Assembly (NCBI GenBank): GCA_015698285.1 | Contig: CP048685.1 | Location: 1,798,001 to 1,862,000, forward strand | Source: Candidatus Nitronauta litoralis | GTDB taxonomy: Bacteria; Nitrospinota; Nitrospinia; Nitrospinales; Nitrospinaceae | DNA length: 64,000 bases | Direction: 5' to 3' | Part shown: positions 781 through 59,888 of the stretch, piece by piece | Layout: every line of letters starts with the position of its first letter | How positions within the stretch are numbered: position 1 is the stretch's first letter | Made by a program: the position numbers and the translations under genes | Notes under the pieces: generated by a model | The model's input: only the letters and a program-made list of their open reading frames with translations | What the model was told of the DNA's origin: nothing | Databases searched by the model: none

Positions 781-922
781 CATTCGCTGTCCGCAGAGGA
801 TAACCTTGCGGGGGGGGGGCTAATGGGCGGACCCTGTGGAGGTGCCAAAACTTTTTGAGCGTATTGAAAGATGCTTCTTGTTCGCCCCTTCGACAAGCTC
901 AGGGCAGGCTCTTGTGGAGGAC

Positions 923-2759: not shown

Positions 2760-2783
2760 CTTTTCATTTTGATGGCAACAGGC

Positions 2784-2824
2784 AACCCGGCAGGTGAACA
2801 AAACTGTCCGGGTTTCCTCTTTTT
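2784..2824 (+). terminator. Rho-independent terminator after tRNA-Arg
   Basis: AACCCGG (2784-2790) pairs with CCGGGTT (2808-2814), with an extra CAG/CTG inside, followed by a T-rich tract to 2824. It is placed 25 bases after tRNA-Arg and just before tRNA-Ser. Confidence 0.55.
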
Positions 2825-2838
2825 GTCCGAGCAGTATT

Positions 2839-5518: not shown

Positions 5519-6790
5519 ATGCCAAACCAGGTCGTTGTCACCGGTTTGGGCCTCATCACAAGCATAGGAAATAACAAGGCCCAGGTCACTGAAAGCTTAC
5601 GCGAGTTACGCCACGGATTCGAGAACATCACGTTCATGGACAACCCTCGAATTCCCGTTAAAGTTGTTGGATCCATCAAGGAATTCGATACGTCCTCACC
5701 CAACTGGGTGGAGTGGAAATACCCGGAACATTTCAATCTTGATGTCGATTACCTGAAATCGCTGTCTCCACACGGTCTACATTGCCTGTGCGCTATGTTA
5801 CATGCGGTGGAAGACTCCGGATTGAAAGAAGAAGAGGTCGCTTCCACTGAAACTGGTTTGTTCGCATCATCCGCCGGATCAACTTTTATGATGCGGAACA
5901 ATCTGGAAAGCCTGATTGCTACCAATGGAATGCGGATCAATCCGATGAGCGTCGTCGCTTCGGTCTCCGGTACTCTCAATTTTAATCTCGGGGCCTACTT
6001 TGGCATCCGTGGAGGAAACTGCGGATTTGTTTCTGCCTGTGCATCAAGCAGCCATGCTATTGGCTACGGGTTTGATGAGATTTATCTGGGACGACACAAA
6101 AGAATTTTTGTGGTTGGCGGAGAGGATCTGACTGCGGAGACTTATCTGCCATTTAACGGAATGCGGGCGTTGTCCCGCAACCCGGACCCCGATACAGCCT
6201 CGCGTCCCTTTGATAAAAAGAGGGATGGGTTTGTGGGCACCGGAGGGGGAGTGGCCATGGTCCTGGAAAATAAAGAAGATGCGGTTAAGCGCGGTGCCAA
6301 CATATACGCGGAATTGGTGAATTGGGGGCAGGCCTCCGATGGGTACAACATCGCCATGCCGCATCCGGAAGGCAGCGGACTGACACTCGCGATGAAAAAT
6401 GCACTCAAAGCCGCGAAGTTGAAACCGGAAGACGTGGACTATGTAAACGCCCACGCCACCAGCACACCACCGGGTGATCGCTCGGAAGCTCTTTCACTGG
6501 TCAATATCTTTGGAACTGACAAGGATAAGCGTCCGGCGGTGAGCAGTACCAAGGCGCTCACCGGGCATGGACTTTCCATGGCTGGCGTAATGGAAGCGGC
6601 GTTCAGTGTGATATCAATCAAGGAAGGATTTATCCCCGGCGCGGCACACATCTCGGAACCCGATCCGTTATGCGAACACATCACACTTCCCAAAGAAACC
6701 CTGGATCAGGCCCCGAAGAATGTGATCAGCAACAGCAGCGGCTTCGGCGGCAGTAACGTCTGCCTCGTTTTCAAAAAATGGGATGGGTGA
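5519..6790 (+). CDS. Beta-ketoacyl-ACP synthase (KAS I/II family)
   Basis: 423 residues, the usual KAS II length. It has the full thiolase-fold catalytic set: Cys174 in VSACASSSH, His312 in NAHATSTPPGD, Lys345 in SSTKALTGHGL and His350. It condenses malonyl-ACP with an acyl chain. It follows a dedicated ACP in a two-gene unit, which suggests a special fatty-acid or polyketide-like product; that is inference. The N-terminal 80 residues are more divergent than in FabF (WVEWKYPEHF is not standard). The stop TGA at 6788 is also the first part of a CCACC...GG hairpin repeat shared with two other genes. Confidence 0.88.
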   Translation: MPNQVVVTGLGLITSIGNNKAQVTESLRELRHGFENITFMDNPRIPVKVVGSIKEFDTSSPNWVEWKYPEHFNLDVDYLKSLSPHGLHCLCAMLHAVEDSGLKEEEVASTETGLFASSAGSTFMMRNNLESLIATNGMRINPMSVVASVSGTLNFNLGAYFGIRGGNCGFVSACASSSHAIGYGFDEIYLGRHKRIFVVGGEDLTAETYLPFNGMRALSRNPDPDTASRPFDKKRDGFVGTGGGVAMVLENKEDAVKRGANIYAELVNWGQASDGYNIAMPHPEGSGLTLAMKNALKAAKLKPEDVDYVNAHATSTPPGDRSEALSLVNIFGTDKDKRPAVSSTKALTGHGLSMAGVMEAAFSVISIKEGFIPGAAHISEPDPLCEHITLPKETLDQAPKNVISNSSGFGGSNVCLVFKKWDG

Positions 6791-6860
6791 CCACCTTGCG
6801 GCGGGGCTGACGGGCAACCTTATTAGCCGTATCACGGGTGTATTGATATAGCCGCTTTAC
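6785..6860 (+). repeat. Degenerate copy of the TGACCACC hairpin repeat
   Basis: TGACCACCTTGCGGCGGGG begins at the ketosynthase stop codon, followed by 'ttattagccgtatc', which matches 'ttattgagcgtatc' in the 161-bp repeat at 15881-16290. The same arrangement follows both lipoprotein genes. Confidence 0.65.
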
Positions 6861-6939
6861 CATAATCTTCCAGTGGGGCTAGATGAGTAACGGTAAAGGC
6901 AAATTGATGAGATGGGTTTTAATTTAAAAATATTCTGGG

Positions 6940-15045: not shown

Positions 15046-15882
15046 ATGAGGCGGATGATTATTGCGTTTTTGTGTTTGACAAGTTTTGTGGCTTGCGGTG
15101 GAACCTTATATGCTGAGGAACCCCTACCCGAAGATATGTCTCCCAGGGAAAAAACCTGGATGGGAGGAGATGCGAAACAGACTCGTAATGCCTATCTTTC
15201 TAAAAAAGACAAAGCTTTCCGCAAAATTGCAATTGACACTTCTTTTAAACAGGCCCTCTTAAAAGAAGCTGCCACCCCAAAAGGTGTTGTAAAAGACGAA
15301 GCCTCCTGCAAAAAGACACTCCGGCCTCTGGACGAAAAACACAAAGCCCTGCAGTATGAGGGTGGAATGTGGCAGGCGTTTGAGCGCTCTCCGGAAATCC
15401 GTTCGAATTCCAAAACCGGGATGCAGATCGATAGCAATCTAAACAAGCTGGCCCGGGCGGTGCAGCACCTTTGCGCCACCGCCAATGGTGTGCCCAAATC
15501 ATCTGTTGCAAGGATGATCGCCGACATCATCAAGGAAAAGGGGGGTAAGGAAGGAGCACGCCAGCATCTAATTGCCATGGGGCGAGCTAATAAGGATATC
15601 GATATCTGGTTCGATTATGAAGCGGCTGCAGAAAAATCGACCACCCGCAGGGTTTCTTTTGAGGCCATCGAAGGGTTGATGCGTAAATTCCAGACGCTCT
15701 TGAGTAGCTATGAAGACCTCTACAGGCACAAGGTCACCGCAGCTAATAAAGATCAATACCTTTCAAAATCCAAAACATTGCTGGCAGTGATCAACGATAG
15801 TCTCGTCAAGGTTCCTGAATTCGCCATGGCCCAGACGGAGGAAATGGCAGAGCCTCACATGAAATTCATCGGCGAACACTGA
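15046..15882 (+). CDS. Lipoprotein-like periplasmic protein, tandem paralogue 1
   Basis: 278 residues. It has a signal peptide with a lipobox-like FVAC near residue 17, although the following residues (GGTLYAEE) would also allow signal peptidase I cleavage. The mature part is helical and charged with a well-conserved centre (HLCATANGVPKSSVARMI, then KGGKEGARQHL). No known domain is recognised. It is a tandem paralogue of the gene at 16762: similar length, colinear throughout, and sharing a 65-base identical block at 15456-15520. The upstream 'gaaaggtaatcgggattATG' is also shared. The TGA stop is the start of the hairpin repeat that begins at 15881. Confidence 0.75.
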   Translation: MRRMIIAFLCLTSFVACGGTLYAEEPLPEDMSPREKTWMGGDAKQTRNAYLSKKDKAFRKIAIDTSFKQALLKEAATPKGVVKDEASCKKTLRPLDEKHKALQYEGGMWQAFERSPEIRSNSKTGMQIDSNLNKLARAVQHLCATANGVPKSSVARMIADIIKEKGGKEGARQHLIAMGRANKDIDIWFDYEAAAEKSTTRRVSFEAIEGLMRKFQTLLSSYEDLYRHKVTAANKDQYLSKSKTLLAVINDSLVKVPEFAMAQTEEMAEPHMKFIGEH

Positions 15883-16290
15883 CCACCTTGCGGTGGGGCA
15901 ACGTACAACCTGTCAAACAGTGCAACAGGGAGATTAAAACGATTTCTCCCGGCACCCACCTTGCGGTGGCAAACTTTATTGAGCGTATCGCAACAGTTTT
16001 TCTATTGCTGTGAGCCGAGCACCCGCTCGCCGTCCGCGGAGGACCACCTTGCGGTGGGGCAACGTACAACCTGCCAAACGGTGCAACAGGGAGATTAAAA
16101 CGATTTCTCCCGGCAACCACCTTGCGGTGGCAAACTTTATTGAGCGTATCGCAACAGTTTTTCTATTGCTGTGAGCCGAGCACCCGCTCGCCGTCCGCGG
16201 AGGACCACCTTGCGGTGGGGCAACGTACAACCTGTCAAACAGTGCAACAGGGAGATTAAAACGATTTCTCCCGGCACCCACCTTACGGTG
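15881..16290. repeat. Tandem repeat, 161-bp unit, two and a half copies
   Basis: Units start at 15881, 16042 and 16203, so the period is exactly 161 bases; the third copy ends near 16290. Each unit holds two CCACCTTGCGGTGG hairpins and a GGGAGA...TCTCCC hairpin. Copies 1 and 3 share 'ctgtcaaacagtgc' where copy 2 has 'ctgccaaacggtgc'. The array fills the gap between the two paralogous lipoprotein genes; degenerate single copies follow 6788 and 17593. Confidence 0.92.
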
Positions 16291-16294
16291 GAGA

Positions 16295-16500
16295 GCTTTG
16301 TGTTTCCCCAAAAACGAAAGCAAAGGCGAGGTTCTTCGTTTCGCTCAGCATGACAGGATGGCAGTTTTTAGTTTTGATTGATATGGGTTGCAGGTTGTGG
16401 TTTTTTAAAATACGCAATTCCCCAGCATGTCATTCTGATGAGACGTCAGGCGAAGAAGAATCTCGCCCTAGCTTTTGATTTTTGAGTTATGCATTAATAT
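16295..16500. repeat. Dispersed repeats, family A (two degenerate copies)
   Basis: 'gcaaaggcgaggttcttcgtttcgctcagcatgacagg' type sequence at about 16320-16357 and a second, more degenerate copy at about 16425-16490 ending 'gagttatgca'. No gene is seen in 16291-16761. Confidence 0.6.
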
Positions 16501-16761: not shown

Positions 16762-17595
16762 ATGACGCGGTGGATTATTGTATTTTTGTGTTTGCCGAGT
16801 ATCGTGGCATGCGGAGGAACCGAGCAATCGCAGGAACCCCTGGCGATGCCTCCAAAAGAAAAAACCTGGGTCAAAACCGAGAGTGTGGAACAGACCCGGG
16901 AGGCTTATCTGGCCAGAGCAGATAAAGCCCCGCGTAAAATTTCTATCGATACCGCTTTCCAGCAGGCTCTCTTAAAAGAAGCCGCTCAACCCAAAGGAGT
17001 GGTTAAGGATAAAGCCTCCTGTGAGGCCGCCTTTCGTCCGCTGGAAGAAAAACGCAAAGTTCTGCAACGGTCTGGCGGCATGTGGCACGCCTTCGAACGT
17101 GTTGAAGAAATCCGCCCCTTTTCCAATACCGGTATGCAGATTGACAGCAACTTCAACAAGCTTGCCCAGGCGGTGCAGCACCTTTGCGCCACCGCCAATG
17201 GTGTGCCCAAATCATCTGTTGCAAGGATGATCGAAGGCATCATCAGGGACAAGGGAGGTAAGGAAGGAGCACGCCAGCATCTGGTCGATATGGGGCGGGC
17301 CAAAAAGGATATTGAAATCTGGCTTAACTATGAAGCATCTGCGGAAAAAGCCACTACACGTACGGTGCCTTATGAAACTATCGAAGGTCTCATCCGAAAA
17401 TTGCAGACCCTGCTGGATGGATACGAAGATCTCTATAACCGAAAAGTGACTGCAGAAGAAAAGGATGCATTCCTCTCGCAATCCAAAACCCTGTTGGCGG
17501 TGATCAGCGACAGTCTGGAGAATGTACCCGAACTTTCCATGGCATTGGCTGAAGATATGGCCGAACCCCACATCAAATTCACCGGCGAAATGTGA
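16762..17595 (+). CDS. Lipoprotein, tandem paralogue 2
   Basis: 277 residues from ATG 16762; this start matches the paralogue's start and its preceding 'gaaaggtaaccgggatt'. A signal peptide ends in the lipobox IVAC (Cys17), so it is probably an outer-membrane-anchored lipoprotein. It is helical and charged, with the same conserved centre as paralogue 1 (HLCATANGVPKSSVARMI). The first 50 and last 80 residues diverge more. The function is unknown and no neighbour gives a clue. The stop TGA again begins a CCACCTTACGGTGG hairpin. Confidence 0.78.
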   Translation: MTRWIIVFLCLPSIVACGGTEQSQEPLAMPPKEKTWVKTESVEQTREAYLARADKAPRKISIDTAFQQALLKEAAQPKGVVKDKASCEAAFRPLEEKRKVLQRSGGMWHAFERVEEIRPFSNTGMQIDSNFNKLAQAVQHLCATANGVPKSSVARMIEGIIRDKGGKEGARQHLVDMGRAKKDIEIWLNYEASAEKATTRTVPYETIEGLIRKLQTLLDGYEDLYNRKVTAEEKDAFLSQSKTLLAVISDSLENVPELSMALAEDMAEPHIKFTGEM

Positions 17596-17720
17596 CCACC
17601 TTACGGTGGGGTGACGCGCTGAACCTTTTTTGACAAAGAAATGATTTTAAAGCGCATCGCTGAGTGTTTTAAATTGACTGTGCTGAGACCGCCATCTCCT
17701 GGTGGGCAGTGAGTCGCCTT
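17593..17720 (+). repeat. Degenerate copy of the 161-bp hairpin repeat
   Basis: TGACCACCTTACGGTGGGG starts at the lipoprotein stop codon and is followed by 'aagcgcatcgctgagtgttttaaattgactgtgctgag', a degraded match to 'gagcgtatcgcaacagtttttctattgctgtgag' of the array at 15881-16290. Confidence 0.6.
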
Positions 17721-17734
17721 CAAATAGATAAAAT

Positions 17735-17908
17735 TTCACACGTCATTCTGAGCCCTTCGACAAGCTCAGGATAAACTCCGCAAAGAATTTCGCCTTTGCT
17801 TATAAGTTTGGGCTGATATGATATTCCCCCTTCCACGAAGGGGGAAGCGAAGCAGGGGGATTAATCTATTTCAGCCTATATTAAATTGTAGTCATGAAAA
17901 AGAAATCC
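17735..17908. repeat. Repeat cassette 5' of the DUF559 gene
   Basis: Family A (17745-17800) is followed by family C ('attccccctt...gaagggggaagcgaagcaggggg', 17820-17861) and a leader ending in the DUF559 start codon. The segment 17822-17908, including the first codons of the gene, is repeated at 18511-18598. Confidence 0.65.
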
Positions 17909-18307
17909 TCTAACCCTTTTATCCCCTACGATAAATCTCTTAAGGAAAAGGCGAGGAAGCTTCGCAATAATTCAACACCAGCGGAAAAAGAGTTTTGGGC
18001 GATTCTCCGTACCATGCCCTTTTTCAAACGATACTATTTCACTCGACAAAAACCATTAGGAAACTTTATCGTCGATTTTTACTGCCATAAATTAAAGCTG
18101 GTCATTGAAATTGATGGTGATACACATGGTACAGATACTGCGAAGTCGTATGATCAGAAAAGGACGCATTGGCTGGAAGGTCAAGGATTGCAGGTCATTC
18201 GTTTTTCAAATCGTGATGTGTTGAATTGCATCAACGGTGTGATGGAAACGCTTGAAGGGGTTATTGAAAGAATAACAGGGGAAGAATCCCCCCAGCCCCC
18301 TTCGTAG
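17894..18307 (+). CDS. DUF559 (Vsr-like endonuclease fold) protein
   Basis: 137 residues. It has the DUF559 pattern: an N-terminal helix (ARKLRNNSTPAEKEFWAIL), the core FIVDFYCHKLKLVIEIDGDTH with acidic residues expected of a PD-(D/E)xK-type site, then VIRFSNRDVLNCINGV. These proteins resemble the very-short-patch repair endonuclease fold, but their biological role is poorly defined. Repeat DNA flanks it on both sides: the last codons (EESPQPPS) lie inside the 3' repeat 'cagcccccttcgtagaaggggg', and the start region is duplicated at 18578-18598. Confidence 0.85.
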   Translation: MKKKSSNPFIPYDKSLKEKARKLRNNSTPAEKEFWAILRTMPFFKRYYFTRQKPLGNFIVDFYCHKLKLVIEIDGDTHGTDTAKSYDQKRTHWLEGQGLQVIRFSNRDVLNCINGVMETLEGVIERITGEESPQPPS

Positions 18308-59123: not shown

Positions 59124-59145
59124 CCGGCGTAAGCCGGTTATTTTT
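59124..59145 (+). terminator. Hairpin plus T-tract between convergent genes
   Basis: CCGGC (59124-59128), loop GTAA, GCCGG (59133-59137), then TTATTTTT on the plus strand. It is placed between the gene ending at 58922 and moaB (minus strand), whose TAA lies inside the T-tract. A second GC hairpin (GCCCG...CGGGC then CTGTTTT) precedes it near 59065-59090. Confidence 0.5.
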
Positions 59146-59656
59146 CGAGGAGGCGTGGCATCAGTTCCACCAGATTGCATGGTGAATGGGTGCTGTCGAG
59201 TTGATGTACCAGGATTCCATCCCATGCATCCTTGCAGGCCCCGGTCGAACCGGGCAGTGCAAACAGGAAGGTCCCGTTGGCAACCCCACCAGTTGCACGC
59301 GACTGGATGGTCGAGGTTTTAATGCCCTGGTAGCTCAGCCACCGGAACAGTTCGCCGAAGCCCGGAATGGATTTTTCGTAAAGTTCTTCGAACGCTTCCG
59401 GAGTCACATCGCGCCCGGTAACCCCCGTGCCGCCTGTAGCGATCACCACATCCACTTCCGGAGACGCGATCCATTCTTTGAGTGCCGCCTGGATGAGCGG
59501 TATCTCGTCTTTGATGATGCGCTTTTCGACCACGTTGTGGCCGGCACCCTTTGCCCTGTCCACCAGGGTATTGCCTGATTTATCGTCTTCATCGGTGCGC
59601 GTGTCCGACACTGTGATGATCGCGATGTTCACTGCCTTTTTTACCTTTGAAACCAT
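59138..59656 (-). CDS. moaB: Molybdenum cofactor biosynthesis protein MoaB/Mog-like
   Basis: 172 residues from ATG 59656, which has GGAG eight bases upstream; the longer ORF from 59749 has no such site. It has the MPT-binding motif VVIATGGTGVTGRDVTPEAFE and FALPGSTGACKDAWDGIL, with NIAIITVSDTRTDEDDKSG at the start. It adenylates molybdopterin or assists moco assembly. That fits a genome needing molybdoenzymes such as nitrite oxidoreductase, though no such gene is in this window. It stands alone, convergent with the preceding gene. Confidence 0.93.
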   Translation of the reverse strand: MVSKVKKAVNIAIITVSDTRTDEDDKSGNTLVDRAKGAGHNVVEKRIIKDEIPLIQAALKEWIASPEVDVVIATGGTGVTGRDVTPEAFEELYEKSIPGFGELFRWLSYQGIKTSTIQSRATGGVANGTFLFALPGSTGACKDAWDGILVHQLDSTHSPCNLVELMPRLLEK

Positions 59657-59888
59657 GTCGCTTCTCCATAGAAAATTGAGCCGACATGTTAGCAATCCGG
59701 CAAGCCCACTGCAATACCCTTTGATAGTGGGGAGATATTCATTTGGCATTTATATAGTTTAGGAAATTTGTGAATAAGCGTTATTGCTTTGTCTCCCTTT
59801 TCAAGGGAAAGCTTTACATATTTCCAGAAGAATGGCCGATTTACTCCCAATGTTTTCTCCTTGTAGAACTGCTATTCGCGTTCTTGAT

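Follow-up and report, generated by a model that had tools for sequence, protein, structure and literature searches.

A probable family of short interspersed palindromic repeats in Nitrospinaceae, often placed directly behind stop codons and locally amplified between two paralogous genes

The tandem array between two paralogous genes of Candidatus Nitronauta litoralis is, as read from its sequence, a local head-to-tail amplification of two joined interspersed elements. These elements probably belong to a short, non-coding interspersed DNA repeat family of the Nitrospinaceae, and this estimate applies jointly to the whole of our best explanation, including the mode of spread and placement described below. 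Bacterial palindromic repeats cluster near the 3′ ends of genes. What stands out here is that a large share of the copies follows a stop codon with no nucleotide in between, and most of these point the same end toward the gene. A literature search, which covered few subscription papers, retrieved no description of this repeat family. The window analysed is a stretch of 64,000 nucleotides and part of a single contig of 3,921,641 bases.

TRF on the window returned an array at 15881-16291 with a period of 161, 2.6 copies and a 97% match, in agreement with the 161-bp tandem repeat of a preliminary description. Tandem expansion, as assumed there, is also evident from the near identity of the units: there are 3 mismatches between units 1 and 2 over 161 positions (98% identity), and 1 over 89 between unit 1 and the partial unit 3. 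The period of the unit starts given before (15881, 16042 and 16203) is correct but the phase is not: the upstream gene's TGA includes the GA at 15881-15882, which leaves 15883 as the first base of the repeat proper. Unit 1 is thus preceded by the stop TGA, units 2 and 3 by GGA. Every full unit contains the palindrome CCACC-TTGC-GGTGG twice (at 15883 and 15956, then 161 nt further on) and one GGGAGA/TCTCCC stem (15928-15933 pairing with 15945-15950 in unit 1). The three hairpins per unit seen before are indeed all present, but two more palindromes at the unit end, CGAGC-ACCC-GCTCG and GTCC-GCGGA-GGAC, had been missed. Because covariance models of type A (R1) and type B (R2) elements each match one part of the unit, the unit is a dimer of a type B (73 nt) and a truncated type A element (88 nt), giving 161 nt (Table 1).

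Table 1 Paralogous genes, array units and further elements in the window (window coordinates).
Feature	Position	Strand	Details
Degenerate type A	802..900	+	R1 48.4 bits
Type B directly behind stop of ORF 5519-6790	6791..6864	+	R2 67.1 bits; G000:C1:1804791-1804864
Paralogue A, predicted lipoprotein	15046..15882	+	278 aa; stop TGA 15880-15882 adjoins array
Unit 1, type B element	15883..15955	+	Palindrome 15883-15896 and type B body; R2 E 1.2e-18; offset 0 from stop
GGGAGA...TCTCCC stem inside unit 1 type B	15928..15950	+	
Unit 1, truncated type A	15956..16043	+	Palindrome 15956-15969; core TTGAGCGTATCGCA 15979-15992; terminal palindromes 16016-16029 and 16032-16044
Unit 1 truncated type A, R1 partial match	15954-16022	+	
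Unit 2 (type B and truncated type A)	16044..16204	+	Differs from unit 1 as given in the text
Unit 3, partial; array end	16205..16291	+	Type B and second palindrome, the last of the array (loop TTAC, not TTGC)
Paralogue B	16762..17595	+	Predicted lipoprotein; 277 aa from ATG 16762; ORF open from 16711
Single type A directly behind paralogue B stop	17596..17694	+	R1 57.6 bits

Both types open with a CCACC-TNGC-GGTGG-type palindrome, which they have in common together with GGCTAACGGGC. Type B is about 73 nt long. Type A, with about 97 nt, consists of the 5′ palindrome, the core TTGAGCGCATCGCAAAATG and a closing palindrome of the same kind, and this anatomy is fixed among copies from the own genome (G000) and from its congener G002, the sister species and the genome richest in elements: relative to the core, the 5′ palindrome lies at -52/-51 and the 3′ palindrome at about +32. 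In the window, the palindrome with at most one mismatch has 8 matches (0.07 expected), and the exact 14-mer occurs 19 times in the whole own genome, the reversed control never. R1 matched 25 times in the own genome, at least 99 times in G002, 6-36 times in each genome of two neighbouring genera (g2/g3) and a few times further out; by this model, type A is present in most Nitrospinaceae genomes examined. There was no R1 match in G001, an incomplete genome; G002 and most of the relatives are metagenome-assembled genomes. R2 had 20 matches in the own genome and 127 in G002, although some of the weaker ones span only the head common to both types. The core TTGAGCGCATCGCA is also found in many copies in G002. 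Thus, copies elsewhere in the genome and in related genomes, by which the preliminary description proposed to judge the repeat, were found in number.

Members of the family occur singly, as mosaics and as tandem arrays of element length, with periods of 96, 92, 97 and 161 nt in the own genome and of 74, 86, 102 and 94 nt in G002. The own-genome arrays include loci unrelated to the paralogues (period 96 at 1122172; period 92 with about 4.9 copies at ~1363161-1363471). A run of five type B elements with a period of 70 was seen in G002 (G002:C17:1459-1812).

The position of the elements relative to genes was determined at 213 gene ends in fetched stretches of G000 and G002, with gene ends assigned by a home-made codon scorer and palindromes searched within 150 nt. 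A family palindrome followed within this distance at 85 of the 213 gene ends, and in 22 of these 85 the first palindrome was at offset 0 from the stop; every other offset had three cases at most. At gene starts, an upstream palindrome was found in 10 of 136 cases and none was within 11 nt. The 5′ palindrome faces the stop in 20 of the 22 offset-0 cases and the 3′ palindrome in two; TAA, TAG and TGA as well as several different stems are represented. One of the 22 (window 59138-59749, minus strand, stop TAA at 59138-59140, followed at 0 nt by CCGGC-TTAC-GCCGG-AGTGACA) probably belongs to another palindromic family with the same placement.

A second sample consisted of all 136 whole-genome matches to CCACCTNNCGGTGG, which were not selected by location. 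TAA, TAG or TGA preceded 34 of the 136, TGG none. Of the stop-triplet cases, 30 were checked: in 17 the triplet terminates an ORF of at least 80 codons (one, L332, possibly a chance frame), and in most of the others the TGA or TAA lies inside the elements' own linkers. Overall, no constant tag precedes the palindrome: besides stop codons, GCA, GGA, CAC and other triplets are found there. The link to stop codons that had been proposed for this one array turned out to be strong and to hold across the family. The palindrome is also located at the 3′ end of three tRNA genes of the own genome; since no tRNA lies near elements in the fetched stretches of G002 and other relatives, the tRNA link rests on these three loci. 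At window 2760-2830, a type B-like tail (GGCAACAGGCAACCCGGCAGG) that lacks the palindrome lies downstream of a tRNA-Arg.

Orthologues of genes with a stop-abutting element were aligned between G000 and G002, and in about ten pairs the element is on one side only. It is present in G002 and absent in G000, with the stop at the same codon or very close to it, at L163, L167, L175, L172, L094, L090, L187, L188, L169 and L191; L192 and L014 have it in both species. As the orthologue without the element keeps its stop, this codon is part of the gene and not something that the element brings along. Past the stop, the sequences of the pairs are too diverged for reading the 3′ junction or a target duplication, and some pairs could stem from loss of the element instead of gain. 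The tandem segment at L188 seems to include the last codon and stop of the gene (CCCCTAA), a duplication that suggests how stop triplets enter mosaics.

RNAalifold found only a 3-pair helix, in the core, on the element alignment and, therefore, pairing was counted on the named palindrome structure. With this structure 70% of the cells are paired, compared to 33-44% for slid versions, and two-sided changes in stems amount to 36 cells against a shuffled mean of 21; such values for pairing or covariation were reached by none of 500 shuffles. The stems fall into discrete types, mainly CCACC/GGTGG and CCCAC/GTGGG on the 5′ side and GACC/GGTC, GTGC/GCAC and GTCC/GGAC on the 3′ side, and the exceptions comprise 11 G-U and 9 A-C, hardly any excess. 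Discrete stem types and the small G-U excess speak for palindromes that would be kept or exchanged as DNA modules rather than as an RNA fold.

In our reading, the family probably spread as non-autonomous elements, mobilised by a putative enzyme. Their preference for the base next to a stop codon is observed, and targeting would account for it. Slippage, or unequal recombination of nearly identical units, may produce the head-to-tail copies, and the B+A dimer behind paralogue A would have grown to 2.6 copies once the two genes were already duplicated and divergent. In the host, a stop-adjacent hairpin may slow terminating ribosomes, by analogy to known stop-proximal REP hairpins, or may instead cap the 3′ end of the mRNA. 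A Y1 transposase gave no match in G002, but this genome is about 94% complete and the absence is no proof; Y1_Tnp was also absent in G001 and G004-G008. The own genome has a single Y1 gene, which is flanked by an unrelated repeat: the locus (L058, G000:C1:2899809-2900138 plus flanks) encodes a RAYT-like Y1 transposase and the flanking repeat is TGTAGTCAAGTAAAGACTTGACCCC.

The placement could also reflect selection and not targeting. Palindromes would then land anywhere downstream of genes, and stop-adjacent hairpins would be retained because they are useful to the host in translation termination, by slowing ribosomes or by capping the mRNA 3′ end. The spike at exactly 0 nt and the 5′ palindrome facing the stop in nearly all of these cases would fit, and REPs less than 16 nt from the stop are reported to downregulate translation (PMC12306157, citing Liang et al. 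2015). However, a useful window of 15 nt would not yield a spike at a single position, the orthologues in the sister species manage without an element at the same stop, and the stem exceptions lack an RNA-type G-U bias. We regard selection as a possible but rather unlikely cause. Similarly unlikely, though still to be reckoned with, is an enzyme that inserts the element 3′ of any TAA, TAG or TGA, with copies inside genes being purged, which would leave those behind gene stops and intergenic triplets. The frequency of stop triplets in the location-independent sample and the lack of TGG would fit, and among the non-gene cases many do lie behind TGA or TAA of linkers that belong to the elements themselves, while another repeat supplies the TGA in one case. 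Outside the own linkers, however, only about 3 non-gene triplets stand against 17 gene stops, although intergenic DNA offers far more of them; moreover, in two cases it is the 3′ palindrome that touches the stop, and the tRNA ends are without the triplet.

It is tempting to speculate that these miniature elements are steered to stop codons, and to tRNA 3′ ends, by a mechanism that senses where translation or a mature RNA ends. A single-strand transposase with target specificity, cutting behind stop triplets, could act in this way, or the element could be joined to RNA 3′ ends by an RNA-templated route; we consider this specific proposal doubtful. If true, the elements would have a safe haven, as insertions there would leave all host proteins unharmed. 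Since many elements abut stops, mostly with the same end, and are present or absent at stops shared between sister species, targeting and selection can be tested directly against each other. Real targeting would point to an unknown mobilising activity in ecologically important marine nitrite oxidisers, real selection to hairpins with a role in terminating translation or at the 3′ ends of mRNAs.

The best reading of the family is that of a new, REP/BIME-like mosaic repeat without the GTAG/CGTC tag. Like REPs and BIMEs, the elements are short GC-rich palindromes, extragenic, present in many copies, in mosaics and tandem clusters, and preferentially at gene 3′ ends. Unlike these, which have the tag and a RAYT, they lack the tag, no RAYT was found in the copy-rich genome, and their bodies are fixed at ~73 or ~97 nt; for want of tag and cognate transposase, the family was not classed with the RAYT/REP system. 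GTAG REPs often provide the TAG stop of the flanking ORF (PMC3733652, PMC2817692), whereas here the stop (TAA, TAG or TGA) is the gene's own and the palindrome begins at offset 0. With REPINs and bacterial MITEs the family shares a presumably non-autonomous nature, a constrained size and palindromes or inverted ends, but no parent transposon or target duplication was identified for it; type A has inverted ends that resemble each other only in part (CCACCTTGCGGTGGGGCTAAC vs CGGACCTTGCGGTCAGCCAAC). The BOX elements of pneumococcus are modular repeats whose modules are amplified head-to-tail, and in both respects the present family would resemble them; BOX elements are not known to be tied to the nucleotide that follows a stop codon. 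Integron attC sites are likewise palindromic sites directly behind gene stops, but the present elements are scattered in either orientation around ordinary genes and tRNAs; an identity with attC was rejected, as the integron integrase (TIGR02249) stayed below cut-off in G000 and G002. Repetitive hairpin-forming elements in intergenic DNA are also known from organelle genomes (PMC2800124), a mere resemblance.

According to the preliminary description, the array could form a structured RNA or might have mediated the gene duplication, which is now very improbable. The array does sit between paralogues, and as a 451-nt sequence it outscores its shuffles in folding (z = -3.25), a value that is inflated by the tandem palindromes; one unit has a z of -1.38, with 24 of 200 shuffles folding as well, and a search with Rfam 15 covariance models (E <= 5 and 0.1) gave no match. 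Together with the missing G-U excess, this does not bear out an RNA. An intrinsic terminator was rejected as well, the stem being GC-rich without a T run: the next 10 nt contain 1.46 T on average, 1 of 120 palindromes is followed by at least 5 T, and a terminator scan was not above shuffles.

As for the duplication, the paralogues are 69% identical in protein and 73% in coding DNA, compared to the 98% of the array units, and only one element follows gene B. The duplication must therefore predate the array, which is unlikely to have mediated it, and the arrays at unrelated loci come without gene duplication. The duplication itself postdates the split from G002 (support 93/89). The proteins gave no Pfam family over cut-off, and the named relatives of paralogue A are from Nitrospinota, nearly all Nitrospinaceae/Nitrospina, with a few records labelled Nitrospirota/Nitrospirae. 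A 65-base tract at window 15456-15520 is identical in paralogue B, likely due to past gene conversion. That the tandem copies are an assembly artefact is hardly credible, since the units carry private differences, comparable arrays exist at several loci and in a second genome, and Nanopore reads entered the co-assembly if the source is, as we infer, Nitrospinae strain EB, whose published closed genome of >3.9 Mbp is based on Illumina and Nanopore data (PMC8026999).

Other repeats are found close by. Copies of a TGTCATTCTGAGCG...AGAATCTCGCC interspersed repeat are located at window ~16310-16480 and 17740-17790, and in G002 (L340) a palindrome of the element family lies behind the TGA of such a repeat. 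A DUF559 gene at window 17894-18307 has CCCCCTTC/GAAGGGGG inverted repeats on both sides.
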